This document shows positions 18,232 to 41,324 of a stretch of 64,000 nt of DNA, piece after piece. The stretch is from Bacteroidales bacterium (GTDB lineage: Bacteria > Bacteroidota > Bacteroidia > Bacteroidales > UBA4181), in NCBI GenBank assembly GCA_017523725.1, contig JAFWVY010000016.1:1-64000 (forward strand). The letters are read 5' to 3'. Within the stretch, counting starts at the first letter, position 1. Each line of letters begins with the position of its first letter. The notes under the pieces are model-generated. The model was not told where the DNA came from, made no database searches, and saw only the letters and a list, made by a program, of their open reading frames with translations. The translations under genes were made by a program, and so were the position numbers.

Positions 18232-18251
18232 GACTTGCCGGAAAATATCCC

Positions 18252-18283
18252 CAAAAATAACATTTCCGGACCGGACGGACAAG
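18252..18283 (-). promoter_or_regulatory. Promoter of the LytS/LytTR pair
   Basis: Minus-strand TATTTTTG (18259-18252) with CTTG (18283-18280) 20 bases upstream as a -33-like element. The leader to the ATG at 18231 is short. Confidence 0.6.
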
Positions 18284-19753: not shown

Positions 19754-19768
19754 ACAACACATCACATA

Positions 19769-20806: not shown

Positions 20807-20812
20807 GCGCGT

Positions 20813-23800
20813 ATGAGCCTGTACGAACGTTCTGTCAAGAAACCTATCACGACAGCTCTTGTCTATTTGGCTGTCATCGTATTGGGCGTCTTCTCGTTCT
20901 TCAAGCTGTCGGTGGACCTGTTGCCCGACATGGGAGAGAACATCCTGATGGTCATTACGTATTACAACGGCGCCAGTGCGGCCGACATCGAGAACAATGT
21001 CAGCCGGCCGTTGGAGAACACGCTGAACGGTGTCAGCGATCTGAAGCATATCACGTCCTACTCGCGGGAAAACCTCTCCTTCATCATGATGGAGTATGAG
21101 TACGGGGTGGACATCGATGAGGCGACCAACGATGTGCGCGACAAACTGAACATGGTCACTTCGTCGCTGCCTGACGATGCCGGTACGCCGTTCATCTTCA
21201 AGTTCAGCGCAGAAGACTTGCCGATCATGGTTCTGACGGTCAAGGCGCAGGAAAGCATGAATGCGCTCTACAAGATTCTCGATGACCGGGTGGCATCGCC
21301 CCTGAGCCGTATCAACGGCGTGGGTACCGTTTCGATTGCCGGTGCGCCGCAGCGTGAAATCCAGGTCTATTGCGATCCGTACAAACTGGAATCGTACGGC
21401 ATGTCCATCGAGAGCATCTCGGCCGTCATTGCCTCTGAGAACCGGAACACGCCGACCGGCAACATCGACATCGGTTCCAGGACCTATTCCATGCGCGTCG
21501 AGGGCGAATTCTCCGATGCCACACAGCTGCGCGACATGATTATCGGTCACTACAACGGGCAGGATGTCTATCTGCGGGACGTGGCCGTCGTCAAGGACAC
21601 GATCCAGGAACGCATGCTCGAGGCATACAATGACGGGGTCCAGGGCGGCATGATCGTGGTGCAGAAACAATCGGGCGCCAACTCGGTGGCCATTTCCAAC
21701 GCCGTGCTGGCCAAGTTGCCCGAACTGCAGGCCGAACTTCCGTCCGATGTGATTATCACGCCGTTGGTCAATACCTCCGACAACATCGTCAACACGGTGA
21801 ACAGCCTGAAGGAGACGATTATCATCACGTTGCTGCTGGTTGTGGCCGTGGTGTTGTTCTTCCTCGGCCGGTGGCGTGCCACCATCATTGTGGCCGTGGT
21901 GATCCCCGTGTCGCTCATCGCCTCGCTTATCTACCTCTGGATATCAGGCAATACGCTGAATATCATATCCCTGTCATCGCTCAGTATCGCCATCGGCCTG
22001 GTCGTGGACGATGCTATCGTGGTGTTGGAGAATATCACCACCCATATCACCCGCGGTACCAAGCCGAAACCGGCTGCCATCTTTGCCACCAGCGAAGTGT
22101 CGGTCTCCATCGTGGCTTCCACGCTGGTCATTTTCGCCGTGTTTATCCCGCTGACCATGACTTCCGGCATGGCGGGCATTCTGTTCAAACAGCTGGGATG
22201 GATGATTTCCATCATCATCTTCATTTCGCTGATGGCTTCCATGTCGCTGACTCCGATGCTGTCATCGGTGCTGTTGCGGTTGAACCCCGAACACGGCCGT
22301 GTGTACCGCATTCTCTATTCGCCCGTCGAAAAGTTCCTTTCGGCGCTGGACCGTTGGTATGCCGGCGTACTGGGCTGGGCGTTGCTGCACCGCAGGTGGA
22401 TCGTGCTGGGCGCTGCCGCCATTGTGGTCTTTGCCCTGATGCTGATACCCCGTATCCCGACTGAATTCTTCCCGACGATGGACAACGCGCGTCTGTCCAT
22501 CACGGTCAACTTCCCGATAGGAACGCGCATCGAACAGAGCCGGGCTTTCGCCAAGGAATTCACGAAGCATCTGCAGGAGAATTATCCCGAGATTCTCGGG
22601 ACCAACTTCTCGGTGGGCCAGGCGGATGACTCGAACCTGTTCGGCATGCTCCAGACCAACGGCGAATACGTGGTGTCGTTCAATATCAAGCTGAAAAGCA
22701 AGGTGGACCGCACGCGCGGTGTGCTGGAGCTGGCGGACGGCATCCGGGCTGACCTTGCGGAATATCCTGAGATCAGGACGTACGCGGTCGGTCTCGGCAG
22801 CGGTATGAGTTCGCAGTCCAGCGTCGATCTTGAAATCTATGGCTATGACTTCGCAGAAACCGATGCGATAGCCGCCGAGTTTGCCTCGCGGATGCGCAAG
22901 GTGGAGGGTTGTACCGAAGTGTCGATCAGCCGTGATGAGTACACGCCGGAAATCGAGGTGGAATTCGATCGGGAGAAACTGATCCAGAACGGGTTGAGCA
23001 CCACAACAGCTGCTACGTATATCCGCAACCGGTTCAACGGTGCCATCGCTTCGTACTACCGGGAGGACGGCGAAGAATACGACATCCGGGTACGGTATGC
23101 GCCGGAATTCAGGAATTCGGTGGAATCCATCGAGAACATCCTGATATACAATAATGCCGGCCGCGGTATCCGGGTCGGCGAAGTCGGCCGTGTCGTGGAG
23201 AAACTCACGCCGCCGACCATCGAGCGCAAGGACCGCCAGCGTCTGGTGACGGTGTCCTGCATCGTCGGCAAGGGCGCGGTGTTGAGCGATATCGTGGCGG
23301 CCGCCGAGCGCGAACTGTCGCAGATGGATGTGCCGGCCGACATTCTGACCAATGTCGGCGGAACCTATGAGGACCAGCAGGATGCCTTCAAGGACCTGTT
23401 CACCATGATGCTTCTGATTGTCATTCTGGTCTATATCGTCATTGCCGCCCAGTTTGAATCGTTCACCTATCCGTTTGTCATCATGTTCTCCGTGCCGTTC
23501 GGTTTCGCCGGCGTGCTGTTCGGGTTCTTCCTGACCAAAACGGCGCTCGGTGTCATGGCGCTCATCGGTCTCATCATGCTGATCGGTATCGTAGTCAAGA
23601 ACGGTATTGTGCTGATAGATTATACGATTCTCTGCCGTGAACGCGGCATGAAGCTGTACGATGCGGTGGTCACGGCCGGTCGCAGCCGTCTGCGCCCGAT
23701 TCTGATGACCACGTGTACGACAGTTTTCGGCATGATTCCGTTGGCCCTGGGACGGGGAGAAGGTGCCGAGATGTGGAACTCGCTCGGTATGGCCGTGGCA

Positions 23801-23920
23801 TGGGGACTGACGTTCTCCACGGTGGTCACCCTGTTGCTCATCCCGGTTATCTACAGTATATTCGCCGATTTCGGCCTGAAACGCCAGGACCGTATCTCGG
23901 CCAGAAAATCCGAAGCCTAA
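20813..23920 (+). CDS. RND multidrug-type efflux permease (cassette 1)
   Basis: A 1035-residue inner-membrane RND transporter that exports substrates using the proton gradient. The 12 transmembrane helices and two large periplasmic loops of the family are present. The proton-relay set is complete: Asp399-Asp400 in TM4 (GLVVDDAIVV) and Lys929 in TM10 (GIVVKNGIVL), as in AcrB. It is most like the HAE1 (drug/hydrophobe) branch; nothing marks it as a metal pump. The start is 6 bases after the fusion protein stop. It serves as an internal comparison for the altered relay residues of the two RND proteins at 33-41 kb. Confidence 0.95.
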   Translation: MSLYERSVKKPITTALVYLAVIVLGVFSFFKLSVDLLPDMGENILMVITYYNGASAADIENNVSRPLENTLNGVSDLKHITSYSRENLSFIMMEYEYGVDIDEATNDVRDKLNMVTSSLPDDAGTPFIFKFSAEDLPIMVLTVKAQESMNALYKILDDRVASPLSRINGVGTVSIAGAPQREIQVYCDPYKLESYGMSIESISAVIASENRNTPTGNIDIGSRTYSMRVEGEFSDATQLRDMIIGHYNGQDVYLRDVAVVKDTIQERMLEAYNDGVQGGMIVVQKQSGANSVAISNAVLAKLPELQAELPSDVIITPLVNTSDNIVNTVNSLKETIIITLLLVVAVVLFFLGRWRATIIVAVVIPVSLIASLIYLWISGNTLNIISLSSLSIAIGLVVDDAIVVLENITTHITRGTKPKPAAIFATSEVSVSIVASTLVIFAVFIPLTMTSGMAGILFKQLGWMISIIIFISLMASMSLTPMLSSVLLRLNPEHGRVYRILYSPVEKFLSALDRWYAGVLGWALLHRRWIVLGAAAIVVFALMLIPRIPTEFFPTMDNARLSITVNFPIGTRIEQSRAFAKEFTKHLQENYPEILGTNFSVGQADDSNLFGMLQTNGEYVVSFNIKLKSKVDRTRGVLELADGIRADLAEYPEIRTYAVGLGSGMSSQSSVDLEIYGYDFAETDAIAAEFASRMRKVEGCTEVSISRDEYTPEIEVEFDREKLIQNGLSTTTAATYIRNRFNGAIASYYREDGEEYDIRVRYAPEFRNSVESIENILIYNNAGRGIRVGEVGRVVEKLTPPTIERKDRQRLVTVSCIVGKGAVLSDIVAAAERELSQMDVPADILTNVGGTYEDQQDAFKDLFTMMLLIVILVYIVIAAQFESFTYPFVIMFSVPFGFAGVLFGFFLTKTALGVMALIGLIMLIGIVVKNGIVLIDYTILCRERGMKLYDAVVTAGRSRLRPILMTTCTTVFGMIPLALGRGEGAEMWNSLGMAVAWGLTFSTVVTLLLIPVIYSIFADFGLKRQDRISARKSEA

Positions 23921-26362: not shown

Positions 26363-27259
26363 ATGAGCATCATAATTGAAGGTTTAAATAAAATTTATCC
26401 GAGTGGAAATCATGCACTTAAAGATGTGAACCTTACGATTCCGTCCGGCATGTTCGGCCTTCTCGGACCCAATGGAGCAGGGAAGTCAACGCTGATGCGC
26501 ATTCTGGTGGCGCTTATGGAGCCCACGTCAGGCAAGGTGTCGATGTTCGGTTACGACTTGCGGACGCAGAAGAAGGACATCCGGCGTATTCTGGGTTATC
26601 TGCCCCAGGATTTCCGCTTCTTTGCGAAATATAAAACCTATGAATTCCTCGACTATGCGGCCCGTCTGTCGGGTATCACCAACAGCCGTGTCCGCAAGCA
26701 GAAGGTGGCTGACATGCTTGAGCAGGTCGGCCTGTACGATGCCCGTGACCGTTTTGCCTCGCGTCTGTCCGGCGGTATGAAACGCCGTCTGGGCATTGCG
26801 CAGGCGTTGATCCACGACCCCAAGATTATCATCGTGGACGAGCCGACGACCGGTCTGGACCCCGAGGAGCGTATCAAATTCCGCAACATTCTGACCAATA
26901 TCGCCGAACATGATGTGTCCATCATCCTTTCTACGCACATTGTCGGCGATATTTCGTCGTCTTGTACCCACATGACGTTGATGAACAGGGGACAGGTTTC
27001 GTTCTTCGGTTCTCCCGAAGACCTCCTCAAGGCGGCGGAAGGTTCTGTCTGGCTGATTCATGCCAACGACGAAGAATTCCACGAAATCATCGAGAAATAT
27101 CCTGTGGTTGCGACAATCCCCGCCGAAAAGGGCTGGGATGTACAGGTTGTCACCAAGGATATCGACCCGCGGTATAAGGCCGAGGCGATGGTGCCCAATC
27201 TGGAGCATGCCTACGTGCATTTCATCGATACGACATTCAACGAGTGGTCGAACGCGTAA
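26363..27259 (+). CDS. ABC transporter ATPase, first gene of the RND-ABC operon
   Basis: A 298-residue ABC-2 type nucleotide-binding protein. Walker A is GPNGAGKST (Gly35-Thr43), the Q-loop region LPQDF, the signature LSGGMKRR, Walker B IIIVDEPTTGLD and the switch histidine in STHIVGD are all intact, so it should hydrolyse ATP. About 60 residues after the ATPase core end in PNLEHAYVHFIDTTF. The same closing pattern (PNLEDAYLCML) and a shared ISSSC near the H-loop occur in the ATPase fused to the RND protein at 36.6-41.3 kb, so the two are paralogues and could form a heterodimer. It is 12 bases from the permease gene. Confidence 0.95.
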   Translation: MSIIIEGLNKIYPSGNHALKDVNLTIPSGMFGLLGPNGAGKSTLMRILVALMEPTSGKVSMFGYDLRTQKKDIRRILGYLPQDFRFFAKYKTYEFLDYAARLSGITNSRVRKQKVADMLEQVGLYDARDRFASRLSGGMKRRLGIAQALIHDPKIIIVDEPTTGLDPEERIKFRNILTNIAEHDVSIILSTHIVGDISSSCTHMTLMNRGQVSFFGSPEDLLKAAEGSVWLIHANDEEFHEIIEKYPVVATIPAEKGWDVQVVTKDIDPRYKAEAMVPNLEHAYVHFIDTTFNEWSNA

Positions 27260-27271
27260 ACACGGGGGGAT

Positions 27272-30200
27272 ATGGTAACATTAAACAATATTCTTTCCGT
27301 AGCCCATTATGAACGCAAGCTTCTGCTGCGTTCTTGGTTTTTCAGGGTGTTCGCCATCCTGGTCATACTGGCGTTCGTCGTCATCAACATGGCCACGCTG
27401 AGCGATGTCGGCATGTCCACGTGGCTCTACCGCGCCATTCCTTCGACGATTCCGTATTTCAACCTGACGCTGCTGAACGTGGCACAGGCGGTCATCGCCA
27501 TCTTCCTTTCGGCTGATTTCATCAAGCGGGACAAACAGCTGGACACCTCCGAGGTGTTCTATGTGCGTCCGCTCAGCAACGCCGAATATGTGCTCGGCAA
27601 GACATGGGGCAACCTGAGCGTCTTCTTCTTCCTGAACTTCGTGATGCTGCTGCTGGTCTATTTCTTCAACACCACGGCCTCCAATACCTATGTGGACTTT
27701 TCGTCCTACATTATTTATTTCCTGCTGATCACGGTGCCGACGCTGCTTTTCATCATGGGCCTTGCTTTCTGCGTGATGCTCATCCTGAACAACCAGGCAC
27801 TGACCTTTATCGTGCTGCTGGGTTATATCGCACTGACATTGTTCTATATCCAGGGCAAGTGGGATTATGTGTTCGACTATATGGCATACGGTCTGCCGAT
27901 GTTCCGTTCGACGGTGCTCGGGTTCACGGATCCTGTCAAACTGCTGTCGCTGCGCATCATGTATATTCTGCTGGGCGCCGGATTCATCTGCCTGACGGTC
28001 TATCTGTTCAAGCGTCTGCCGCATTCTCCTGCGCAGAAGTATCTTTTCCTGTTCCTTGCGCTGGGTTTCTTTGCCCTTTCGGGCATCATCGCCGTGCATC
28101 ATGTGATGCGTTTCAACGGCAATATTGAGGAACGCCGGCAGATGGTGGCGCTGAACGACGAATTCGGCGATTCACCGGTGATGCTGGTCGATGAATACGA
28201 TCTGACCATAGACCAGAAAGGGAACGGCATTTCGGTCGAAGCCGTCATGTTTGCCATTGCACAGGAATCTGCTTCGAAGTTCCTCTTCACGCTGAATCCC
28301 TCGCTCAAGGTCTCGTCGGTCCATACGCTGGACGGCCGTGACCTCCAGTACGAGCGGAATCTTCATCTGTTGTTCGTGGACATGGGCCGCGAAGTGGCGG
28401 TCGATGACACCGTGCAGGTGGTCGTGGAGTACGCCGGCTCGATCGACGAGAATATCTGTTACCTCGACATGTCACAGGCTGTCCTGCAGGCCAAGAATAC
28501 GTCGAACCGCATCAATTTCCCCAAGAAATATGCGTTCTCGACGTCCGGCTATTTCATGGTGACGCCCGAATCCTACTGGTATCCCCGTCCGGGCACGACT
28601 TTCAGCAACGTCCATTCCGGCTGGCAGCAGTCTTTCTTCAGTTATTACGATGTCCGGGTCAAGCCGGCCAAGGGGCTGGTGCCTGTCACGCAGGGTGCCC
28701 TGACCGATACGCTGGACGGCTATTTCCATTTCATGCCCGACACGCCGTTGCCGTCGGTCTCGCTGGCCATCGGCGACTACGTGCGCGAAAGCATTACCAA
28801 GAACAACGTGACCTACGGCGTCTATTATTTCAAGGGTCATGACTTCTTCAAGGACGGTCTGGACAGCATTCCAGATACCATTCCCGGCATGATCAACGAG
28901 ATCAAGGAAGATTTCGAGCGCACGGTTCAGATGACTTATCCTTACGACCGTTTCACGCTGGTGGAGGTACCCGGCCAGTTCTACTGCTATTCGCGGGCCT
29001 GGACGCAGACGGTCGACTGGACGCAGCCGGAGATGGTCTTCATGCCCGAGAAAGGCTATTCCATCAACTCCATCGAATTCACCAACCTTACCCGGCGGAT
29101 GCGGCGTTTCAGCCAGGTGATGCAAAGTCCGCAGGAACTGCAGATGCAGGCGCTCAACACATTCCTGTATTCCTTTACGAGTGAGTCAAGCATGGGTATG
29201 GGCATGGGCATGCGCGGGGCCGGTTTCACGTCGTCCAATCCGTGGTATCAGTATCCGCAGATGTACGACTTCCGGTACAATGTCTATTCTCCCGATCTGC
29301 CGATTGCCAACAGGATGGTTTCGAACTACCTGCAATCCAATATCCTGAGCGGTCGTGCCGGTTTCGGCAACTTCATGGGGCGTTCCATGAACGGTATGTC
29401 GGCCGAGGAACAGGCCAACGTGCTTCTGCAGCAGAAGTCGTTCGAACAGCTGTTGGTCGATACCAGCCGCAACAACGTCATCAACACCATCATCAACCTC
29501 AAGGCCTCGCAGCTCTTCGCCTACGGTGAGCTGGAAGCCGGGACCGAGAGGTTCAGCGAGAAATTCAAGGAAATCATCGAGATGTATCCATTCCAGAACC
29601 TGCGCTTCGAGCAGCTGCTTTCCCAGCTGAACGATTCCATCGGAGTGGATGTGTCCAAGTATGTGGACGACTGGTACCATACCACCAAAGTCCCGCGCTA
29701 CCTGTTCAGCAACCCGACCTACACCATGGTGTCCAACTGGTTGGAAACGGCCTACGAGATTACGCTCAAGGTTACCAACGACAGCGATGTGGACGGTTTG
29801 ATCAAACTGACGATCGCATACGCCTGGGGCAATGAGGACGCCGATGTGATTCCCGTGAAGGTCGGTGCGCACAAGACAGTGGAAGTGGTTGTCAACTCTG
29901 ATGTATATCCGCGGTCGATGACCATCAACACCATGGTGTCGCAGAACCTGCCGAATTCCATCAGCCAGAGTTTCACGCAGGCCGAGAACGAACGGCGTGA
30001 GTTGCGCGAGCCCGGGCAGTTCGAGGTGGAAGGCGTGGCCAACGCCGTACCGCCTGACGAGATCATTGTGGACAATGAGGACACGGCTTTGTTCTCGGTC
30101 ACCAATTACGAAATCACCGGCTTGCTCCAGAAATGGCTTCTTGAAGCCAAGGAAGAAGATAAATATCAGGCAATCATGAATTTCCGTCCGCCTCTGCGCT

Positions 30201-30850
30201 GGACTGCAACAACCAATACCGCCTATTACGGTCAATTCGTCCGTTCGGCCCTGGTTATCCGTTCCGGCAACGGCAGTCAGACGGCCACCTGGAAAATACC
30301 TATCAAAGAGGCCGGCCGTTATGAGGTCTATTACAATCTCGCAAATGGTGGCAACGGCCGTGGTGGCGGCTTTGGCGGCGGTGGCTTCGGCGGCGGCATG
30401 CCGGGCGGCGGTTTTGGCGGCGGTATGCCGGGCGGCGGCTTTGGCGGTGGTATGTCTGGCGGCAACATGGGCGGCGGCAACCGTGGCGGTGGTAACATGG
30501 GCGGTGGCAACCGCGGTGGCGGCAACATGGGTGGCGGCAACCGTGGCGGTTTCGCTGGCGGCAACATGGGCGGCGGCAATATGCGCGGCGGCAACATGGG
30601 TGGCGGCAACCGTGGCGGCGGCCGTGGCTGGTTCGGCAACAACCAGCAGGACAATGGCTACAACTTCAAGTTGACGCAAGGCCACGCCATCAACGAGGAC
30701 GTCTTCCTCAACATGAACTGGGCTTCTGCAGGTTGGAACCTGCTCGGCACGTATGTCTTCGAAGCCGACACCGCGCAATTGGTCCTGAATAACGAATCGC
30801 GGCAGCGCTCGGTTGTGGCCGATGCTGTCAGGTTGGTCAAAGTACAATAG
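27272..30850 (+). CDS. Giant ABC permease with M1-peptidase-like ectodomain and golvesin-like tail
   Basis: A 1192-residue membrane protein. Residues 1-285 hold about seven hydrophobic helices of an ABC-2 type permease. Residues about 290-1000 are exported and resemble the M1 aminopeptidase-like ectodomains of this permease class (YPYDRFTLVEVPGQFY, WTQPEMVFMPEKGYS), but no HExxH zinc motif is present, so it is probably not a peptidase. The C-terminus resembles a golvesin-type beta domain: ATWKIPIKEAGRYEVYYN, then GWNLLGTYVFEADTAQL and VVADAVRLVKVQ. That domain is interrupted by a roughly 97-residue Gly/Met/Asn/Arg-rich insert (residues about 1026-1122). It pairs with the preceding ATPase. Confidence 0.85.
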   Translation: MVTLNNILSVAHYERKLLLRSWFFRVFAILVILAFVVINMATLSDVGMSTWLYRAIPSTIPYFNLTLLNVAQAVIAIFLSADFIKRDKQLDTSEVFYVRPLSNAEYVLGKTWGNLSVFFFLNFVMLLLVYFFNTTASNTYVDFSSYIIYFLLITVPTLLFIMGLAFCVMLILNNQALTFIVLLGYIALTLFYIQGKWDYVFDYMAYGLPMFRSTVLGFTDPVKLLSLRIMYILLGAGFICLTVYLFKRLPHSPAQKYLFLFLALGFFALSGIIAVHHVMRFNGNIEERRQMVALNDEFGDSPVMLVDEYDLTIDQKGNGISVEAVMFAIAQESASKFLFTLNPSLKVSSVHTLDGRDLQYERNLHLLFVDMGREVAVDDTVQVVVEYAGSIDENICYLDMSQAVLQAKNTSNRINFPKKYAFSTSGYFMVTPESYWYPRPGTTFSNVHSGWQQSFFSYYDVRVKPAKGLVPVTQGALTDTLDGYFHFMPDTPLPSVSLAIGDYVRESITKNNVTYGVYYFKGHDFFKDGLDSIPDTIPGMINEIKEDFERTVQMTYPYDRFTLVEVPGQFYCYSRAWTQTVDWTQPEMVFMPEKGYSINSIEFTNLTRRMRRFSQVMQSPQELQMQALNTFLYSFTSESSMGMGMGMRGAGFTSSNPWYQYPQMYDFRYNVYSPDLPIANRMVSNYLQSNILSGRAGFGNFMGRSMNGMSAEEQANVLLQQKSFEQLLVDTSRNNVINTIINLKASQLFAYGELEAGTERFSEKFKEIIEMYPFQNLRFEQLLSQLNDSIGVDVSKYVDDWYHTTKVPRYLFSNPTYTMVSNWLETAYEITLKVTNDSDVDGLIKLTIAYAWGNEDADVIPVKVGAHKTVEVVVNSDVYPRSMTINTMVSQNLPNSISQSFTQAENERRELREPGQFEVEGVANAVPPDEIIVDNEDTALFSVTNYEITGLLQKWLLEAKEEDKYQAIMNFRPPLRWTATTNTAYYGQFVRSALVIRSGNGSQTATWKIPIKEAGRYEVYYNLANGGNGRGGGFGGGGFGGGMPGGGFGGGMPGGGFGGGMSGGNMGGGNRGGGNMGGGNRGGGNMGGGNRGGFAGGNMGGGNMRGGNMGGGNRGGGRGWFGNNQQDNGYNFKLTQGHAINEDVFLNMNWASAGWNLLGTYVFEADTAQLVLNNESRQRSVVADAVRLVKVQ
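30346..30640 (+). repeat. Imperfect tandem repeat encoding a Gly-rich insert
   Basis: Degenerate in-frame repeats of GGCGGCGGT/AACATGGGC units encode motifs such as GGGFGGGMPGG and GGNMGGGNRGG. The tract is wholly within the permease gene, and length variation between strains is likely. Confidence 0.85.
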
Positions 30851-30882: not shown

Positions 30883-32382
30883 ATGTATATGAAAAAAATC
30901 GCACAGATGGCAGTACTGGGACTGATGCTCCTGATTCCGACTTTTGTATCGGGAGAGACCGTGCTGACCTTGGAAAAAGCATTGGAGATCGCTGCTGAGA
31001 ACAGCCCGACCATTGTCAAGGCCCGTCTCAGCATGGAAAGGACGAAACTGAACATGGTGGCGCAGGAGGCCAATCTGAAAGCCAAGTTCTCCGCCTCTCT
31101 GAACCCGATCAGTTTCTCCAGATCACGTTCATATGATGAATTCAACACGGCCTGGTACACCAGCCAGAGCCTTGGTTCCAACGGTTCGTTCTCGATTTCT
31201 CAGCCTGTTATCTGGACCGACGGTACCGTCAGCTTGACCAACCGCCTGAGTTATCAGCACAGCGAAACAGAACGTTCGGGTTTCACCAGCACCAACTCGC
31301 GCTGGTCGAATAACCTGAGCCTTTCACTGTCTCAGCCTATTTTCAAGTACAACGCAACCAAGATGAACATGCGCCAGTTGGAACTGGAGTACGAAAACGC
31401 GCACATGAACTATGCCTCGCAGATGATGAACATCGAGCGTTCGGTGACGCAGGCGTTCTATAGTGCCTATCTTGCCCAGATGCGACTTGAGATTTCCCGC
31501 GAGGAATATGAGAACAACCTGCGCAACAATGAACTCATCAAGGTGAAAGTCGATGGCGGCCTGTCTCCGCGCGAGGAACTCTTCCAGGCGGACGTCAACA
31601 TGCTGAGCGCCCAGTCCGACTGGGAGTCCACGCAGGTCAGCTTTGAGAGAACCAAGGATCAGTTCAAGCAGACGCTGGGTATGGACATCGACGAGGACAT
31701 CTCGTTCGCGGCCGACATCAACGTGGACAATATCGTGGAAGTTTCCGAGGAGGATGCGCTGAAATATGCCCTCATGTACCGTTTTGAGTTCCGCCAGCAG
31801 GAAATCAACCTCGAAAACGCCGAAATGTCGCTCATCCAGACCAAAGCCAATGACAAGATCAGCGGTACGATCAGCGCTTCGCTCGGTATCACCGGTGACG
31901 ACAAGGATCTGGCCAATATCTACCACAAGGAGAACCGTACGCAGAGCCCGCAGGTCTCGTTGAGCCTGCAGATTCCTATTTTCGACTGGGGTGTTCGCAA
32001 GGCCCGTATCAAATCGCAGGAAATCAGCATGGAGTCTACTAAAATCGACATAGCAGAAGAGAAGAAGACCATCATTCTGGATGTCCGTTCGGCCGTCCGT
32101 TCCTACGAAAACACTGTCGCGCAGATTGAGATTGCCGAGAAAACGGCTGCGAATTCGCAGTTGACTTACGACCTGTACGTGGAACGTTACCGTACGGGCG
32201 ATATCACCGGTCTGCAGATGAACCAGTACCAGACGCAGCTTTCGTCTTCCAAGATTTCTTATTTGCAGGCACTGATCAACTACAAGACCGAGCTTCTCGC
32301 CCTCAAGATTGCTACGATGTACGACTTTGAGAAAGGCGAACCGGTCAATCCGCTCGAGAAATACAAACTTTACGAAGATTAA
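30883..32382 (+). CDS. TolC-family outer-membrane channel of the RND-ABC operon
   Basis: A 499-residue outer-membrane factor. A signal peptide (AVLGLMLLIPTFVSG) precedes the mature protein. The first repeat begins LTLEKALEIAAENSPTIVKA; a large serine-rich strand region (about residues 75-145) forms barrel sections; coiled-coil helices carry KVDGGLSPREELFQADVN and the second-half counterpart ERYRTGDITGLQMNQYQTQ. It is somewhat longer than the cassette 1 TolC protein. It should give the hybrid transporter an exit through the outer membrane. The gap after the permease gene is 32 bases with no terminator. Confidence 0.94.
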   Translation: MYMKKIAQMAVLGLMLLIPTFVSGETVLTLEKALEIAAENSPTIVKARLSMERTKLNMVAQEANLKAKFSASLNPISFSRSRSYDEFNTAWYTSQSLGSNGSFSISQPVIWTDGTVSLTNRLSYQHSETERSGFTSTNSRWSNNLSLSLSQPIFKYNATKMNMRQLELEYENAHMNYASQMMNIERSVTQAFYSAYLAQMRLEISREEYENNLRNNELIKVKVDGGLSPREELFQADVNMLSAQSDWESTQVSFERTKDQFKQTLGMDIDEDISFAADINVDNIVEVSEEDALKYALMYRFEFRQQEINLENAEMSLIQTKANDKISGTISASLGITGDDKDLANIYHKENRTQSPQVSLSLQIPIFDWGVRKARIKSQEISMESTKIDIAEEKKTIILDVRSAVRSYENTVAQIEIAEKTAANSQLTYDLYVERYRTGDITGLQMNQYQTQLSSSKISYLQALINYKTELLALKIATMYDFEKGEPVNPLEKYKLYED

Positions 32383-32415: not shown

Positions 32416-33465
32416 ATGAAACGATTTATTCCCGTTATTTTGCTTGTAGGCTTGCTGGCCGCTTGTGATTCCAGACCCACCACAGTTACCACCGATATTG
32501 CATCTCCTGTTACGGTGCAGGAAGTGGGCAGAGGTTCCATCAGCAGACTTATCAACACGACCGGTACAGCTTTGGCGGTCGAACAGGTGACCCTGAATTC
32601 GCAGATGGAAGGTTTGTATTTCGTTGATATCAACCCCGCTACCGGGAAGCCCTTCAAGATGGGAGACAAAGTACGGAAAGGTCAGTCTATCGCTCACTTT
32701 GTGGACAAAGAATATGAGAATTCCACTGCTTTGAAAGTCAAACAGATGAATCTTGAGATCGCCAGACAGAACCTGGAATCCACCAAGGTGCTGTTCGAAA
32801 AGGGCGGTGCCACCCAGAGTGAGGTGACCAACCAGGAAATCTCCGTGATCAACGCCGAGAACGACTACTATTCGGCAACCCTCCGCGATGCAGCCATGCG
32901 CGTGACATCGACCATCGACGGTGTCATCACCAACATGCCGCACTACACCCAGGGTGTGAAGCTTTCCTCCAACCAGGAAATCGCCACGGTGATGAATTAC
33001 TATAAGATGTACATGGAAGTGAACCTGCCGGAAAGCGTCAGCACCACGATTGAAGCCGGCCAGCCGGTTTACATCACGCACTACACGCTGCCCGATGACA
33101 CGTTGTCCGGTGTGTTGAGCGAGATTTCTCCCGCCATCAGCTCCGAGACCCGTACATTCCTGGCCAAAATCACCATCGACAATCCCGACCTGCTCATCCG
33201 TCCGGGTATGTTCGTCAAGGGTGATATCATCGTGGAACAGTCTGTTGACGTGCTGGTCATCCCGAAGAATGTGGTGGTCACCGGCCGGAACAGAAAGCAG
33301 GTCTATGTGGTCGAGAACAACACGGCCATCCTGCGCCGCATCACGACGGGCCTGGAAGACTCCGAGAACATCGAGGTCACTGGCGGTCTGAACGAGAACG
33401 AGAGCCTTGTCATCACCGGTTTCGAAACCTTGCGTGAAAACGCGAAGGTCAAAATCATTAGATAA
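32416..33465 (+). CDS. Membrane fusion lipoprotein of the RND-ABC operon
   Basis: A 349-residue HlyD/AcrA-type adaptor with a lipoprotein signal (VGLLAACDSRP). Biotinyl-lipoyl halves flank a helical hairpin (NLEIARQNLESTKVLFEKGG); the second half reads RVTSTIDGVITNMPHYTQG, followed by a beta-barrel (LPESVSTTIEAGQPVYITHY) and a final membrane-proximal domain (VFVI-type LVIPKNVVVTGRNRKQVYVVENN). Adaptors of this class serve RND and MacB-type ABC pumps, so it could in principle bridge either module of this operon. It is followed 9 bases later by the RND gene. Confidence 0.94.
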   Translation: MKRFIPVILLVGLLAACDSRPTTVTTDIASPVTVQEVGRGSISRLINTTGTALAVEQVTLNSQMEGLYFVDINPATGKPFKMGDKVRKGQSIAHFVDKEYENSTALKVKQMNLEIARQNLESTKVLFEKGGATQSEVTNQEISVINAENDYYSATLRDAAMRVTSTIDGVITNMPHYTQGVKLSSNQEIATVMNYYKMYMEVNLPESVSTTIEAGQPVYITHYTLPDDTLSGVLSEISPAISSETRTFLAKITIDNPDLLIRPGMFVKGDIIVEQSVDVLVIPKNVVVTGRNRKQVYVVENNTAILRRITTGLEDSENIEVTGGLNENESLVITGFETLRENAKVKIIR

Positions 33466-33474
33466 TACGTCCGT

Positions 33475-36400
33475 ATGAGAAAAGTTGTCCAATTTGTAGT
33501 AAGTCATCCCGTCACGGTCACCATGGCCGTGCTGGCCCTGGTCTTGCTCGGTATCATATCTTACGGCAAACTTGGAGTCGACCTTTTCCCGAACCTGAAC
33601 AATCCGCGTCTTTTCGTCGAACTGACGGTGACGGACTGTCCGCCGGAAGAGATTGAGAGTAAGTTTGTCGAAGGTATCGAATCGACATCCATACGGCAGG
33701 ATGACGTTGTCGGTGTTTCCTCGATCATCAAGTCGGGAGCCGCCCAGATCACCATCGAATACGCTTGGAAGAAAAATATGGACGAGGCCTTCCTGGATAT
33801 CCAGAAAGCCCTGGCAAGTTATATGAACAACAGCGAAATCGATGAATTTGTCATTACCCAGCACGACCCGAACACCGCGCCCATCATGATTGTGGGCGTC
33901 ACGCACAGCACCATCACCGACATGGCACAGCTGCGCAAGTCGACCGAGAGCTACGTCCGCAACGAGATTGTGCGCGTGGCCGGTATTGCCGATGTGGAGC
34001 TGACGGGCGACGAGGTCGTCGACTTGATCATCGAAACCGATGAGTATAAGCTGAATGCGTTCGGTCTGTCAACCAGCGACATTTCCAGTAAGATCCAGAA
34101 CGCCAACCAGAGCGTTTCCGGAGGTAACATCAACGAAGGCGGCACCCAGTATCTTGTGAAGGGTGTCAGCATGGTCGCCACGCTGTCCGACTTTGAAGAC
34201 CTGGTGGTCGGATACAAGTCGGTTGGCGCCTCTTCCACGAGCAGTGCCTCGATGGCGCCGATTTACCTGCGCGACGTTGCAACCATTTCCTTCCAGAACC
34301 AGCGTCCGGAGAACATTGTCCGCATCAACGGACAGCGGGCCATCGGACTCTCGATCTACAAGGAGACGCAGTACAATACGGTACAGGCCGTCAACGGCGT
34401 TTTCGACGCATTGGAGGATATCAAGAGCGCCCTGCCGCAGTACCATTTCGAGATTATCACCAACCAGGGCGGGTTCATTGAGAACTCCATCAAGGAAGTG
34501 AAGGACACCGCCGTCATCGGTATCCTGCTCGCCGTGATTGTGCTGTTTATCTTCCTGCGCCGCATCGGCACGACGGTCATCGTCAGCCTTTCGATTCCTA
34601 TTTCCATTATCACCACCTTCAACCTGATGTATTTCAACGGTCAGTCGTTGAACATCATGTCTCTCGGCGGCCTGGCGCTCGGCGCCGGTATGCTGGTGGA
34701 CAACGCCATTGTGGTGGTGGAGAATATTGTACGACACCATAACCAGGGCAAGTCCACCATGGAAGCTGCCATAGCGGGAACCTCGGAGGTCGCCGGTGCG
34801 GTTACGGCCTCTACGCTGACCACCATCGTGGTGTTCCTGCCTATCGTATATCTGCAGGGCGCCACGGGCGAACTGTTCAAGGACATGGCATGGACGGTGA
34901 CGTTCTCGCTGCTCTGTTCACTGGTTGTTTCGCTGATCGTGATTCCTACGCTGTACTACGGTCTCTTCCGGGGACGCAAGAAAGCGGTGCTCGAACTGAG
35001 CGAGGACGCGGCTTCGTCCGAAATCACCAGCAAGGACATCCGCTTTACGTTCTACCATGACTTCCTCAACAAAGTCTTGGATATGAGAGGTCTCGTGATT
35101 CTTCTCGCCATTGCGCTGTTCGTGATTGTCTTGTTGCTTCTGCCGCTTGTCGGTACGGAGTTCATGCCGCGCAGCGAGAGCGAATCGTTTACCATCTCCA
35201 TCAAGATGCAGGACGGTACGCGCATTGAGCGCACTTCATCGGTGGTATCGAGCCTTGAACACATCATTTACGACCTGGTGCCCGACAGCGTGATGGTTTA
35301 CAGCCATGTGGGATCCAACAGCGGTGAGACCAACTCGGTGTTCGAAGGAGAACACACGGCGGTCATGAAGGTGCAGCTCAAGTCCAAGACGATGGATGTG
35401 AACGACCTGATCAATTCGATTTCGGCATATACTGAGACAGTACCCGATTTGGAGGTGACGTATTCGCAGGACGAAACGGCGCTCAGCTCGCTGCTGGGTA
35501 CCGACGCCGCGCCGCTGGTTGTCGAGATCAAGGGCGAAGACCTGGATGTGATTTCTTCCCTGACCCGCGAGGTGCAGGCCACTATCGAACCGATGGAAGG
35601 CATCTTCAACATCTCTTCGACTGTGGAGGATGGCGCGCCCGAGATTGAAATCGTGCTCGACCGCATGCTGGCCGGACAGAACAACATCTCTATCTCGACG
35701 GTGATCAACCAGATCCAGTCGCAACTTTCCGGTCAGGAAGCCGGTGAGTTCGAATACGAGGGTGAATTGCGCAACATTGTCATCAAGGTGCCGGAGAAAA
35801 CATTGTCCGACCTGATGAGCATGTCCATTACCAGCGGTTCTTCGCAGTATATGCTGCAGGAATTGGCGACGGTGCGCGAAACGGTGGCTCCCGGTGAGAT
35901 CTTCCGCCGCAACCAGAGCCGTATCGGCAAGGTCACGGCCAATATCCGCAGCAACTACACGCTGGACCAGGTGGCCCGCGATGTCCGCAAACGGACAGCC
36001 TCCATCGAGTTGCCGGCCAATTACAGCATCAACATCACCGGTCAGGAAGAGCAGCGTCAGGAATCGACCCGCAGTCTGTCTCTGGCTTTGATTCTCTCCA
36101 TCATTCTGGTGTACATGGTCATCGCGTCGCAGTTCGAGTCGCTGATGCACCCGTTCACCATCATCCTGACCATCCCGATTGCCCTGACGGGCGCCATCCT
36201 GGCGTTCTTCTTCACGGGTAACACGTTGAATGCCATGGGTGTCATCGGTATAGTCATGTTGGCCGGTATCGCGGTGAACAACTCCATTCTGCTTGTTGAC
36301 CGCATGAACCAGATATACCGTTCCGGCGTATCGCGCCGGGAGGCGATTCTGGCGGCCGGACAGCAGCGTATCCGTCCCATCCTGATGACGACGCTGACCA

Positions 36401-36573
36401 CTATCCTGGCCATGCTCCCGATGGCGCTGAGCTTCGGAGAAGAGGCAGAATTGCGTTCGCCGATGGCTCTTGCCGTGATCGGCGGTCTGATTACGTCCAC
36501 TTTGATGTCCCTGATTGTCATACCGTGTGTATACGATGCGGTGGAACAGTTTAAGGATTATGTACGTAAATAG
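33475..36573 (+). CDS. RND permease subunit 1 of the RND-ABC operon
   Basis: A 1032-residue RND transporter with complete family length and two periplasmic loops. The TM4 relay site reads Asp409-Asn410 (GMLVDNAIVVVENI) in place of Asp-Asp, and the TM10 lysine is replaced by Asn935 (GIAVNNSILLVD). Such variants are known in many RND branches, but they contrast with the DD/K set of the 20.8 kb pump. It is followed by a second RND gene after 14 bases, an MdtBC-like arrangement that suggests a heteromeric trimer. Confidence 0.93.
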   Translation: MRKVVQFVVSHPVTVTMAVLALVLLGIISYGKLGVDLFPNLNNPRLFVELTVTDCPPEEIESKFVEGIESTSIRQDDVVGVSSIIKSGAAQITIEYAWKKNMDEAFLDIQKALASYMNNSEIDEFVITQHDPNTAPIMIVGVTHSTITDMAQLRKSTESYVRNEIVRVAGIADVELTGDEVVDLIIETDEYKLNAFGLSTSDISSKIQNANQSVSGGNINEGGTQYLVKGVSMVATLSDFEDLVVGYKSVGASSTSSASMAPIYLRDVATISFQNQRPENIVRINGQRAIGLSIYKETQYNTVQAVNGVFDALEDIKSALPQYHFEIITNQGGFIENSIKEVKDTAVIGILLAVIVLFIFLRRIGTTVIVSLSIPISIITTFNLMYFNGQSLNIMSLGGLALGAGMLVDNAIVVVENIVRHHNQGKSTMEAAIAGTSEVAGAVTASTLTTIVVFLPIVYLQGATGELFKDMAWTVTFSLLCSLVVSLIVIPTLYYGLFRGRKKAVLELSEDAASSEITSKDIRFTFYHDFLNKVLDMRGLVILLAIALFVIVLLLLPLVGTEFMPRSESESFTISIKMQDGTRIERTSSVVSSLEHIIYDLVPDSVMVYSHVGSNSGETNSVFEGEHTAVMKVQLKSKTMDVNDLINSISAYTETVPDLEVTYSQDETALSSLLGTDAAPLVVEIKGEDLDVISSLTREVQATIEPMEGIFNISSTVEDGAPEIEIVLDRMLAGQNNISISTVINQIQSQLSGQEAGEFEYEGELRNIVIKVPEKTLSDLMSMSITSGSSQYMLQELATVRETVAPGEIFRRNQSRIGKVTANIRSNYTLDQVARDVRKRTASIELPANYSINITGQEEQRQESTRSLSLALILSIILVYMVIASQFESLMHPFTIILTIPIALTGAILAFFFTGNTLNAMGVIGIVMLAGIAVNNSILLVDRMNQIYRSGVSRREAILAAGQQRIRPILMTTLTTILAMLPMALSFGEEAELRSPMALAVIGGLITSTLMSLIVIPCVYDAVEQFKDYVRK

Positions 36574-36587
36574 TTAATCTTCAAGGC

Positions 36588-39500
36588 ATGCAATTTTTAA
36601 TCAACAGAAAGATAACCATCTTCATGCTGTTTTTGGGGATCACCATACTCGGGGTGGTCTCCTATAAACAGTTGGCGGTTGAGTTGTTGCCCGATTCCGA
36701 ATTGCCTCAATTGTACGTCTCCGTATCGGCACGCAGCGAGGTCGACCCGGCTTATCTCGAGTCGCAGGCTGTGGTATACGTCGAAGGCCTTCTGGCCACC
36801 GTGGAGGGCATTGAGGAAATGGAAACGAGGATTACGACCCGGTCGGCGAACATTGAAGTCAGTTTCAACCAGCATATCAACCTGAATTACACTTATCTGA
36901 AACTGCAAGAGCGCATCAAGGAAGCCAACAATACGCTCGGCGATGATTTCACGGTCAGTGTGAGCAAGGTGAATACGAATACGGTTTCGAACAACTTCAT
37001 GGAGTTGCAGGTGAGGGGATCCGGCGGTGCCGACCGTGTCCGCCATATTGTAGAGGAGTCCATTGCGGACGAACTGCTCAATATCGACGGAATCGCCACG
37101 GTCTCGGTATTCGGCGGCAGGCAGCGTACCATTGAGGTGCAGCTGAACCAGGACGAATGTGACGCCCTGAATCTGACCACGCAGCGTATCGCCAGTTCCA
37201 TTACGTCAAACAGCAACGGCAGGACCTACCTCGGTCATGTCGATGACTTGCAGACCCGTTATTATGTCTATCTCACGGCCGAGTACAAAGATGTCACTGA
37301 CATTGAGAACGTGGTGGTAGCCAACGGGCCGATTCTCCTGAAAGACATTGCGAATGTATATTTCGGCGTCCAGGAAGAAACCACCATCAGCCGTATCAAT
37401 GGCAAGGAGGCGGTTTCGGTATCGCTCGTCAACGATGCCCAGTCGAACGCCATCGAGCTGTCCCACCGCGTCATCGCCACCATCGAGACGCTGAACGAAC
37501 GGCTGCGTCCGCTGGACATCGAGATGGTCGTGCAGACCAACAGCGCCGAGAGCATGGAGGAAAACATCAACCAGATTATCAGCCTGGCGCTGACCGGCGG
37601 TCTGCTGGCCGTCTTCATCCTGTGGGTGTTCCTGCGGAACCTGCGTCTGGTCATTTTGGTTGCGTTCTCCATTCCTATTTCGGTCTATGCCGCGTTCAAT
37701 TTCTTCTATGCATTCGGTATCACCCTCAACAGCCTGACATTGGTCGGTATGGCACTGGCCATCGGCATGCTGCTCGACAGCAGCGTCGTGGTGCTTGACA
37801 ACGTGTACCGGCTGGCCTCGAAAGGGTTGAGTGCCGACAAGGCCGTGGTGCAGGGCACCAGCGAGGTCTGGCGTTCTATCGTCGCGTCCACGCTGACCAC
37901 GATCGTGATTTTCGTGCCCTTCATCTTCACCAGTAACTACATGATCCGGTTGCTCGGCGTCCAGGTCGGAACCTCCATCATTTCCACCCTGTTGATGTCC
38001 CTGCTGGTGGCGCTGATCTTCATTCCTTCGCTGCTGCATCTCTTCCTCAAGAAATTCGAAGCCTCGAAGGACAAGACTGTCTTCGTGGAATCGCTGAACA
38101 TCCGTCAGCGTTTCATGCAGATCTACACGGTTATCCTGAAGACCGCCATCCGTCATCCGGCCATTACGATCTTCTCGGCCATCTTCCTGCTGGTCGTGTC
38201 GCTGATGCTGGCGCTTTCTGTCAACATCAACTCTCTGACCACGGTAGAAGCCGACCAGTTCAATGTCTATATCACCATGCCGTCGGGCAGTACGCTCGAG
38301 GCGACCGATATCGTGACGGAGACGTTCGAGGAGTCGCTCATCGATATCCTCGAGATCCAGGATGTGACCAGCCGTATCCAGGAAGGTGAGGCGGTGGTCG
38401 GCATCACCCTGAAGGAAAACTTCGAGAAAATCGCCAAGCGCGACATCGCCGCGGTGAAATCCGAAGTGGAACGGCGGGCATGGCAGATCCGTACCGCGGA
38501 CATCTCACTGTCGGAATCCATGGCCAGCCAGAGTTTCTCCAGCAATTCATCGGGATCGATCAACTTCATGCGTATGCTCGGTATCGGTGAGAACCGCGAG
38601 CGTATCGTGTTGAAGGGACGCGATTTCGAGGTGATGCAGCTCGTTGCCGAAGAAATCGAGTACTACCTCGGTGAGATGGAGAACATCAACAGTGTGTGGA
38701 CGTCTTCGTCCAGCAACTCGCCCGAGGCGCACCTGACCTTCGACCAGGTCATGATGGCGCAGTACGAACTGACCCAGCAGAATGTCATTTCCTCGCTGAA
38801 TTCGGCCAACCAGGCCTCTACCGGTTCGATGTCCTCCGGCGCTTCGCTGACGTTGAAAGACGAGACGTACGACATCACCATCACGACCGAAACGGACGAC
38901 GAGGAAACCAACAACAATAACAATAACAACCGCCGCGGCGGCAGCCGTGCCTCCATGTCGCTGAACCAGCTGAAGGAGACATTGGTTGAGAATGCGTCGG
39001 GCGCCATGTATCCGTTGAACAACATTGCCGGTGTCACACTGACGTCGGGCAAATCGACCATCCGCCGTGTCAATCAGGAAAAGTTGATTGAGATTTATTA
39101 CACGTTCCCGTCCGAGGCGCAGGAGTCCAAGACTCTGCTCGAAGCCTACCGGCTCGAAGTGGATGAATTCATGGACGGATACGAACTGCCGGCCGGTGTG
39201 GCGGCTGAGATCGTGCACGAGGAAGACGAATATGCAGAGTTCAAGTTCCTGATTTTTGCTGCCGTCCTTCTTATCTACATGATTCTGGCCTCGGTGTTCG
39301 AATCGGTTGTGATGCCGTTCCTGCTGATGCTGACCATTCCGCTGGCGGCCATCGGATCGCTGCTCGGTCTTGTCATCACGGGCAACAGCCTGCTGAGTGC
39401 CAATACGCTGATCGGCTTCCTGATTCTGCTCGGCGTCGTGGTTAACAACGGTATCATCCTTGTGGATTACACCAACATCCTGCGCAGCCGGGGTTACCGG

Positions 39501-41324
39501 CGCAACCGTGCCTTGATGATGGCAGGTTACGCGCGTATCCGGCCTATCATGATCACGTCCATCACCACCATTATCGCTATGATGCCTATGGCGATGGGAA
39601 CGAGCGAATACGCCGGCGCGGTCGGCGCGCCGTTCGCGGTGACGGTCATCGGCGGTCTGTCGTTCTCCACACTGCTGACGCTGGTCTTCATCCCGACCAT
39701 CTATGTCGGTCTGGAAAATGCACTGGCCTGGTATCGTGGACTTTCGCGCAAGATGCACCTCATCCACATTGCCATCTTCCTGGTCGGCCTGCTGCTCATC
39801 CTGCGGCATGTGGACGGCCCGTACATGAAGATGTTGTATGCCTTCCTGCTCTTCCTCCTCATCCCGGGCGTCACCTATTTCGCCCAGACGAGTCTGCGGA
39901 GTGCCAACTCGACGCTCATCGGTCCCGACGATCCGCTGCACATTGTCATCGGCAACCTGGTCAAGATCTACGACCGCAGCGGTCAGGTGTATCGCGAATG
40001 GCAGAGCGGCCAGAAAATACGCGAACGTCTCGGCCTGGCCAAGGAGTTCTATACCTGGCGGGACTTCAACAACTTCATCTGGCAGATTCCGCTTCTGATA
40101 TTCTTGATTTACTTCGCGTTCTTCTTTATCAAGCAGAAAGCCTGGATGTTTATCCTCGCCCACATCATCTATTTCTTCGTCCTGTCGCTGGGCGACTGCT
40201 TCAAGTCGTATCTGACCAACAATGGTCATCCGCGTGCGGCCAAGACGTTGGGCAAGATTTTGTTCTGGGTGGTGCCGTACATTATTCTGTACATCTTCTT
40301 CAAGAAATGGGACAGTATCGGTCTTGTGGCGCTGGTGGGTATCTTCTGGACCCTCGCGCTGGTCATCTACACCATCTCCAACTACCTCTATAACAATGAT
40401 ATCAATATCAACCGTATAGAGGGCCGCTTCAGCAATCTCCGCCGCGGTTTCTACCGGACCATCAAACAGATTCCGGTGGTCGGCAAACGCCGTGTGCCGT
40501 TCAAGGCGCTGAAGGGTGTTTCGTTTGAGATTACGACGGGTATGATCGGTCTGCTTGGCCCGAACGGTGCCGGTAAGTCCACCTTCATGCGTATCATCAC
40601 CGGTATTCTGGAACAGAGTTACGGCAAGATATGGATCAACGGGTTCGACACGCAGGTTTACCGCGAAGAGCTCCAGTACCTCATCGGCTTCCTGCCCCAG
40701 GAATTCGGTATGTACGAAAGCATGTCGCCTGTCCAGTTCCTGGAATACATCGGTATCCTGAAGGGGTTGACCGACAAGCAGGTTCGCGACGAGCGCATCG
40801 AATATGTGCTCAAGTCGGTCCATATGTGGGAAAAGAAGGATGACAAGATCGGATCCTTCTCCGGCGGTATGAAACAGCGTATCGGTATTGCCCTCATCCT
40901 GTTGCACCTGCCGCGCATCCTTGTGGTGGACGAACCGACCGCAGGTCTCGACCCGCGCGAGAGAATCCGCTTCAGGAACCTGCTGGTGGAACTGAGCCGC
41001 GACCGTATCGTCATCTTCTCGACACACATTATCGAGGATATCTCTTCGTCCTGCAACCAGGTGGTTGTCATCAACAAGGGCGAACTGAAGTACTTCGGCA
41101 ATCCGCGTGACATGGTGGAATATGCCGAAGGCAAGATCTGGCAGTTCTACGTCACGCTCGAAGAGTTCGACGCCATGCCCGACAAGCAGATGATCATCCA
41201 TCACATCCAAGACGGCGACAGACTGCGCGTCCGTTACGTCGCGGGCAGCAAACCCACGCCGGACGCCGTGCTCGTGGAACCGAACCTCGAAGACGCTTAT
41301 CTCTGTATGTTGAAAGGCATCTGA
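36588..41324 (+). CDS. RND permease fused to an ABC ATPase (1578 aa)
   Basis: A single continuous frame with three parts. Residues 1 to about 1045 are a complete RND permease (starts MQFLINRKITIFMLFLGITI), with TM4 reading Asp397-Ser398 and TM10 Asn953-Asn954. Residues about 1050-1290 contain six further hydrophobic helices (for example IHIAIFLVGLLLIL, WMFILAHIIYFFVLSLGDCF, ILFWVVPYIILYIFF). Residues about 1300-1578 are a full ABC ATPase: Walker A GPNGAGKST from Gly1324, Q-loop LPQEF, signature FSGGMKQR near 1422, Walker B ILVVDEPTAGLD, H-loop STHIIED. All ATP motifs are intact. A seven-residue polyasparagine run (775-781) sits in the second periplasmic loop. I know no characterised RND-ABC fusion of this kind. 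Confidence 0.92.
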   Translation: MQFLINRKITIFMLFLGITILGVVSYKQLAVELLPDSELPQLYVSVSARSEVDPAYLESQAVVYVEGLLATVEGIEEMETRITTRSANIEVSFNQHINLNYTYLKLQERIKEANNTLGDDFTVSVSKVNTNTVSNNFMELQVRGSGGADRVRHIVEESIADELLNIDGIATVSVFGGRQRTIEVQLNQDECDALNLTTQRIASSITSNSNGRTYLGHVDDLQTRYYVYLTAEYKDVTDIENVVVANGPILLKDIANVYFGVQEETTISRINGKEAVSVSLVNDAQSNAIELSHRVIATIETLNERLRPLDIEMVVQTNSAESMEENINQIISLALTGGLLAVFILWVFLRNLRLVILVAFSIPISVYAAFNFFYAFGITLNSLTLVGMALAIGMLLDSSVVVLDNVYRLASKGLSADKAVVQGTSEVWRSIVASTLTTIVIFVPFIFTSNYMIRLLGVQVGTSIISTLLMSLLVALIFIPSLLHLFLKKFEASKDKTVFVESLNIRQRFMQIYTVILKTAIRHPAITIFSAIFLLVVSLMLALSVNINSLTTVEADQFNVYITMPSGSTLEATDIVTETFEESLIDILEIQDVTSRIQEGEAVVGITLKENFEKIAKRDIAAVKSEVERRAWQIRTADISLSESMASQSFSSNSSGSINFMRMLGIGENRERIVLKGRDFEVMQLVAEEIEYYLGEMENINSVWTSSSSNSPEAHLTFDQVMMAQYELTQQNVISSLNSANQASTGSMSSGASLTLKDETYDITITTETDDEETNNNNNNNRRGGSRASMSLNQLKETLVENASGAMYPLNNIAGVTLTSGKSTIRRVNQEKLIEIYYTFPSEAQESKTLLEAYRLEVDEFMDGYELPAGVAAEIVHEEDEYAEFKFLIFAAVLLIYMILASVFESVVMPFLLMLTIPLAAIGSLLGLVITGNSLLSANTLIGFLILLGVVVNNGIILVDYTNILRSRGYRRNRALMMAGYARIRPIMITSITTIIAMMPMAMGTSEYAGAVGAPFAVTVIGGLSFSTLLTLVFIPTIYVGLENALAWYRGLSRKMHLIHIAIFLVGLLLILRHVDGPYMKMLYAFLLFLLIPGVTYFAQTSLRSANSTLIGPDDPLHIVIGNLVKIYDRSGQVYREWQSGQKIRERLGLAKEFYTWRDFNNFIWQIPLLIFLIYFAFFFIKQKAWMFILAHIIYFFVLSLGDCFKSYLTNNGHPRAAKTLGKILFWVVPYIILYIFFKKWDSIGLVALVGIFWTLALVIYTISNYLYNNDININRIEGRFSNLRRGFYRTIKQIPVVGKRRVPFKALKGVSFEITTGMIGLLGPNGAGKSTFMRIITGILEQSYGKIWINGFDTQVYREELQYLIGFLPQEFGMYESMSPVQFLEYIGILKGLTDKQVRDERIEYVLKSVHMWEKKDDKIGSFSGGMKQRIGIALILLHLPRILVVDEPTAGLDPRERIRFRNLLVELSRDRIVIFSTHIIEDISSSCNQVVVINKGELKYFGNPRDMVEYAEGKIWQFYVTLEEFDAMPDKQMIIHHIQDGDRLRVRYVAGSKPTPDAVLVEPNLEDAYLCMLKGI

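Follow-up and report, generated by a model that had tools for sequence, protein, structure and literature searches.

An ABC half permease with a zinc-less M1-like ectodomain and its six-gene ABC/RND operon in Bacteroidota

Introduction

ATP-binding cassette (ABC) and resistance-nodulation-division (RND) transporters are treated as separate classes that are powered differently, by ATP and by protons, respectively. The locus described here raises the question of what an ABC permease with a protease-like ectodomain does inside an RND operon. It lies on contig JAFWVY010000016.1 of a Bacteroidales bacterium (GTDB UBA4181; GenBank assembly GCA_017523725.1), of which positions 1 to 64,000 of the forward strand were analyzed (the window). 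The gene in question (gene 2; 27272..30850, + strand, 1192 amino acids, aa) is the second of six on the same strand and encodes an ABC-2 type half permease followed by a pseudo-M1 ectodomain and a golvesin-type domain. The first-pass annotation, made from the sequence alone, had given the gene as 28100-30850; this interval is a real part of it, the exported portion only (about residues 277-1192), and the full open reading frame (ORF) is larger.

Results

The AlphaFold2 model of the permease, computed from 56 aligned family members, has a mean predicted local distance difference test (pLDDT) score of 83, with most ectodomain blocks at 85-97, and runs from interfacial and transmembrane (TM) helices, which end at residue 298, through a beta domain, a mixed helical domain and further beta structure to the golvesin-type domain. 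The N-terminal beta domain and thermolysin-like domain that together define the M1 fold are both present in the model, in residues 300-845 (28169..29806, + strand). All 50 matches listed by Foldseek are M1-family enzymes (best E 7.6e-17), and the best VIA-align row (Z 21.4, root-mean-square deviation 5.2, 384 residues, model residues 297-845) has the two-domain M1 enzyme from Deinococcus radiodurans as its target; ERAP1, IRAP, LTA4H and tricorn factor F3 rank just below. The M1-like ectodomain claimed earlier is therefore upheld by structure prediction, and an unrelated fold did not turn up. At the sequence level the likeness is faint. Over residues about 731-816 (the C-terminal helical part), the permease family profile aligns to M1 sequences of the PDB at E 0.001-0.01, and the protein on its own, searched against the PDB, gave chance rows only. 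The Peptidase_M1 profile (PF01433) is matched at E ≤ 0.01 by 12 of 36 members, the window copy not being among them, and exceeds its curated cut-off in one of eight members examined (L081, 29.1 versus 27.7 bits), where the match spans only the part after the metal site. Pfam matched no peptidase family in gene 2, and PF01433 found no M1 peptidase in its own genome.

Relatives were drawn from 60 related genomes (10 matched), from 84,980 species genomes, whose scan gave 305 relatives (the best 80 were used), from a phylum sample of 296 genomes, and from an order sample of 295 genomes, of which 42 matched at E ≤ 1e-30, in 27 of 183 genera. A permease ORF is present in 91 of the 92 context loci (L031-L122; not in L070), and these, the window copy and 31 of 32 further loci give 123 sequences, 102 of them distinct. 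The zinc site by which M1 peptidases are recognized, HExxH with a downstream Glu, is lacking in this family: there is no HExxH in the window protein, the M1-like part is free of it in all 102 distinct members (window copy included), and the HETKH found in four rows (L039, L092, L171, and L183) falls in each case within the C-terminal beta region. No relocated site is apparent either, as across the family no His or Cys in residues 300-925 reaches 95% conservation. The search of homologues thus bears out the earlier claim that the zinc motif is missing, while the idea of a loss in this copy does not stand: a recent loss in this genome is ruled out, since the whole family lacks HExxH. Because the motif is missing throughout and no His or Cys in residues 300-925 is conserved to that degree, the alignments indicate that the missing site is a family trait and that these ectodomains are a pseudoenzyme family.

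The M1-like part contains no GAMEN string (the GxMEN motif), and other positions are strongly kept. E565, P567, P586, and E593 are invariant and N680 is conserved in 99% of the family; position 684 is Glu in 95% and Ser in the window copy, and E713 is conserved in 90%. Since the zinc motif is missing while E565, P567, P586, E593, and N680 are conserved, these residues may mark a non-catalytic surface that has been kept.

The family profile also catches active M1 enzymes and fusions of an ABC permease to an M1 domain, which are 1064-1265 aa long, have HEVAHQWW-type sites and presumably correspond to the database product name of an ABC permease/M1 aminopeptidase fusion type (L159-L168). A stand-alone gene for an ABC ATPase, or nucleotide-binding domain (NBD), is found at 10 of the 10 fetched loci of these fusions and is directly adjacent in eight, with other ORFs lying between in L161 and a short ORF in L163; no TolC, membrane-fusion protein (MFP) or RND gene was recognized within 10.4-14 kb at the 10 loci. 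Peptidase_M1 is matched in eight of the eight fusions scanned and Golvesin_C in none of them. With hhalign, the window family aligns to the catalytic fusions with a probability of 99.4% (E 1e-21) over residues 11-834, and the window membrane domain matches both of their permease halves, the second better than the first (E 2e-12 versus 8.5e-8). Such profile alignments indicate that the permease and its M1 domain are homologous to these NBD-paired, catalytically equipped proteins, from which the window family differs in its single permease half and lack of HExxH. E593 falls opposite the Glu of YSEAIG in the fusions, in a profile alignment whose register is unproven, and hhalign sets their HExxH against residues of helix 603-613 of gene 2; the former zinc helix could instead correspond to helix 620-633 or to the conserved helix 679-692.

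The membrane domain (residues 1-298; 27272..28165, + strand) has about six TM helices plus a long last helix in the predicted secondary structure, or six to seven TM helices in total, and the last helix (253-298) runs into the ectodomain. Pfam detects in gene 2 Golvesin_C and a weak ABC-2 permease signal: ABC2_membrane_2 scores 18.9 bits in the window copy, under its cut-off of 27.2, and is found at E ≤ 0.01 in 27 of 36 family members, while no MacB/FtsX-type family was reported in the scan of these 36 and no NCBIfam name reached its cut-off for the window permease. Behind the M1 fold, residues 846-925 (29807..30046, + strand) form a C-terminal beta region, with strands in the model and without a family match. 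The golvesin-type tail of the first-pass annotation is real. Golvesin_C (PF25275) is matched at E 2.3e-12 (47.6 bits versus a cut-off of 31.6) and by 36 of the 36 members scanned, the family profile aligns this part to the C-terminal domain of xanthan lyase in the PDB (6f2p) at E 7e-7, and the strings GWNLLGTYVF and VVADAVRL stand at residues 1154-1163 and 1181-1188. The first half of the domain (residues 926-1025; 30047..30346, + strand) begins near a conserved DNED, and the second (residues 1127-1190; 30650..30841, + strand) holds the GW...LGTYVF...VVADAVRLV stretch. Between them lies a disordered Gly-rich loop (30347..30649, + strand; pLDDT about 28), placed at residues 1028-1126 in the model; in the window it measures 103 aa with 57% Gly, against a family median of 14.5.

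Upstream of the permease, gene 1 (26363..27259, + strand, 298 aa) encodes a stand-alone, GldA/DrrA-like NBD (ABC_tran E 1.3e-32), and downstream follow a TolC-type outer membrane channel (gene 3; 30883..32382, + strand, 499 aa, OEP E 7.5e-42), an MFP or adaptor (gene 4; 32416..33465, + strand, 349 aa, HlyD_D23, with RND_mfp over its cut-off), an RND permease (gene 5; 33475..36573, + strand, 1032 aa, ACR_tran E 4.5e-218) and a second RND permease fused to an ABC ATPase (gene 6; 36588..41324, + strand, 1578 aa). The order NBD-permease-TolC-MFP-RND-RND::NBD is kept in 56 of the 58 loci with enough flank, so the RND operon had been correctly noted, and the setting that had been called unusual is the rule of the family. 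An NBD lies directly upstream of the permease in 75 of 76 loci and its motifs are intact, in agreement with the assignment as an ABC permease: gene 1 homologues retain Walker A in 84 of 85, the signature, Walker B and H-loop in 85 of 85 and the A-loop in 83 of 85, and the motifs of the gene 6 ATPase are likewise intact. Both NBDs match the GldA model below its cut-off (192 and 178 bits versus 403). The loci are nearly all from Bacteroidota and spread from Prolixibacteraceae to Bacteroides, Parabacteroides, Alistipes, and Tannerella. In the phylum sample, with two permease candidates and four candidates for the linker plus NBD of gene 6 scored per genome, both are full length in the same four of 296 genomes (our own, G123, G175, and G217) and in no other. 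No PLSDB match indicated carriage of the operon on a plasmid.

In gene 6, ACR_tran covers residues 2-1041 and ABC_tran 1308-1452, and between the RND part and the ATPase core lie two hydrophobic helices, the segment HIVIGNLVKIYD, and about four further hydrophobic helices. The segment (residues 1118-1129; 39939..39974, + strand) matches strand 1 and the A-loop of an NBD; it is followed by a membrane insert of about four TM helices (residues 1130-1302; 39975..40493, + strand) and then by the remaining part of the NBD, which carries Walker A, the signature, Walker B and the H-loop (40494..41321, + strand). A position matrix made from strand 1 and the A-loop of 85 stand-alone NBDs scores best at residue 1118 in all of the 60 fusions examined, with a mean score of 11.4 versus -2.4 for shuffled sequences; the 60 are homologous and not independent, and the score of one shuffled row, 10.7, exceeds those of some real sequences (for example 2.8). 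Because the matrix is best at 1118 and the NBD profile resumes at its position 23 in the core, strand 1 seems to be split off, which suggests an ATPase interrupted by a membrane insert after its first strand. A hidden Markov model reports a separate upstream NBD match in five of 45 fusions. The AlphaFold model of the linker plus NBD is poor in the NBD, and its structure alignments, which pair the model from residue 68-76 onward with the start of single-domain NBDs, lend weak support at a root-mean-square deviation of about 10. A second ABC-2 half permease within the linker is unsupported (hhalign probability 0.3 versus 0.5 for the reversed control).

Genes 5 and 6 both match ACR_tran, the family of HAE1-type RND proteins, in which the proton relay in AcrB numbering is Asp407-Asp408-Lys940. 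This canonical relay is missing from both operon proteins (33475-36573 and 36588-39722), which read D-N-N and D-S-N in the window. Across the loci, Asp407 is kept in 135 of 135 operon RND proteins; position 408 is Asn in 69 of 69 gene 5 products and Asn, Cys, Ser, or Thr in 66 of 66 gene 6 products; and position 940 is Asn in 69 of 69 and in 65 of 66 (one gap). The control set comprised 37 rows, of which L219, L221, L222, and L241 were wrong-strand ORFs and were dropped; Asp-Asp-Lys is present in 25 of the 33 usable rows, two of which are the operon's own proteins. A tandem RND pair elsewhere in the genome (L242 and L243, on G000:C7) has the relays D-S-N and D-T-N, which rules out a change unique to the operon. 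As these two proteins of the same genome share D-x-N, proton independence does not follow from it, and a similar pattern occurs in other RND subgroups.

The genome holds five copies of the permease, which form one clade (99/99) and hence arose in this lineage; the nearest outside row is from G003, and two copies (L033 and L034) are on long branches. The four orphan copies are L031 (8372-11848, - strand), L032 (13081-16422, - strand), L033 (10716-14075, - strand), and L034 (2-3073, + strand), and no NBD, TolC, MFP, or RND gene was recognized beside them in the stretches fetched. The nearest NBD relatives in the genome, excluding the operon's two, are about 34% identical to the fused NBD, and one guess is that the orphans use the operon's ATPases.

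A separate TolC/MFP/RND cluster (18407-23920) lies just upstream of the operon, and its ordinary RND protein (20813-23920) has the Asp-Asp-Lys relay. A LytTR response regulator and a histidine kinase (16445-18282) are encoded on the strand opposite to this cluster, and directly after the operon comes a 231-aa ORF without a Pfam match (41397-42092).

Discussion

We propose, at about an even chance of being right, that the permease is the membrane-embedded subunit of a hybrid envelope exporter, part ABC and part RND, and that its ectodomain is a non-catalytic device for binding cargo and handing it over. The half-size permease would probably dimerize and work with the ATPases of genes 1 and 6, holding the catalytically dead M1 fold and the golvesin-type beta domain in the periplasm. 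The M1 scaffold holds peptide ends in its active relatives, and the cargo, a peptide, a lipopeptide, or the terminus of a protein, might be bound in the pseudo-M1 cleft and left uncut. The permease, moved by ATP, would then pass this cargo on to the conduit of adaptor, RND and TolC; the fused sixth protein could provide a physical tie between this conduit and the ABC part.

Several points weigh against this proposal. We infer a single complex of the products of genes 1-6 from gene order and the fusion only, and the coupling of ATP hydrolysis to export, like the binding and transport of cargo by the ectodomain, is putative. The orphan copies have no pump neighbors, and the ectodomain may also act outside a pump. 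Sequence conservation is lower in the M1-like region than in the membrane domain (mean top-residue frequency 0.52 versus 0.62), and the conserved ectodomain residues may be structural.

The closest alternative, which we consider somewhat unlikely, is that the ectodomain binds no cargo and is a scaffold docking the ABC permease onto the adaptor, the RND proteins, or the cell wall. Such a role fits the tolerance of insertions and of a Gly-rich loop, the resemblance of the golvesin-type domain to an accessory module of xanthan lyase, and the physical link that ABC and RND parts would require; the strict conservation of E565, E593, and N680 exceeds what a spacer needs, although it may be related to the fold. 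Rather less probable is a mechanism in which the ABC subunits translocate nothing and ATP moves the ectodomain, as in MacB, LolCDE, and FtsEX, pushing periplasmic or membrane cargo into RND/TolC, with the RND proteins acting mainly as ATP-dependent conduits. The RND::ATPase fusion, the lack of the Asp-Asp-Lys relay in both RND proteins and the presence of TolC and MFP in the operon are all consistent with it, but the permease matches ABC-2 families and no MacB/FtsX-type family was reported for it, one relay Asp is kept in every operon RND protein, and L242 and L243, not known as ATPase fusions, share D-x-N, so that proton independence is not implied. An active metalloprotease with an unrecognized metal site, for which one might cite the M1 fold, the invariant E593 and the largely conserved E684 and E713, is very improbable given the complete absence of HExxH from the M1 part, the lack of any His or Cys conserved at ≥95% in residues 300-925 and the Ser at position 684 of the window copy.

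Beyond the hybrid exporter that we favor, a bolder extension is that the operon represents a new exporter class, an ATP-energized RND machine in which the split-ATPase protein of gene 6 links the ABC and RND halves covalently, ATP binding pulls on its four-helix insert and drives the RND proteins, which have lost part of the proton relay, and the dead-protease ectodomain selects the cargo; we regard this as doubtful, if conceivable. Literature searches, which left out subscription papers and did not try every phrasing, found no such system described, nor do the passages found by keyword in a Chem Rev review (PMC8277102). The RND::ABC fusion is the part that could prove categorically new. If our proposal is correct, a single polypeptide of RND pump and ABC ATPase makes the coupling of ATP to RND transport directly testable in culturable gut bacteria. 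The six-gene machine appears to join two pump types that are normally kept apart, and in the pseudo-M1 ectodomain a pump family has reused an enzyme fold, with catalytic cousins that persist in the same phylum.

Among known systems, the catalytic permease/M1 fusions share the succession of ABC-2 permease and M1-fold domain and the stand-alone NBD gene, and differ in their two permease halves, intact HEVAHQWW...SE site, lack of a golvesin match and lack of recognized TolC/MFP/RND neighbors. M1 metallopeptidases such as LTA4H, ERAP1/IRAP, tricorn factor F3, and the D. radiodurans enzyme share the fold of residues about 297-845, at about 9-14% identity, and have the HExxH site that the permease family lacks. 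The permease family shares the golvesin/xanthan-lyase C-terminal domain, which here is attached to an ABC permease and interrupted by a Gly-rich loop. The GldA/GldFG-type ABC systems of Bacteroidota have similar NBDs, whereas the permease and ectodomain are different here. RND pumps of the MdtABC type likewise combine TolC and MFP with two consecutive RND genes; in the operon described here, by contrast, the second RND protein is fused to an ABC ATPase, an ABC permease and ATPase are part of the operon, and the equivalents of Asp408 and Lys940 are replaced.

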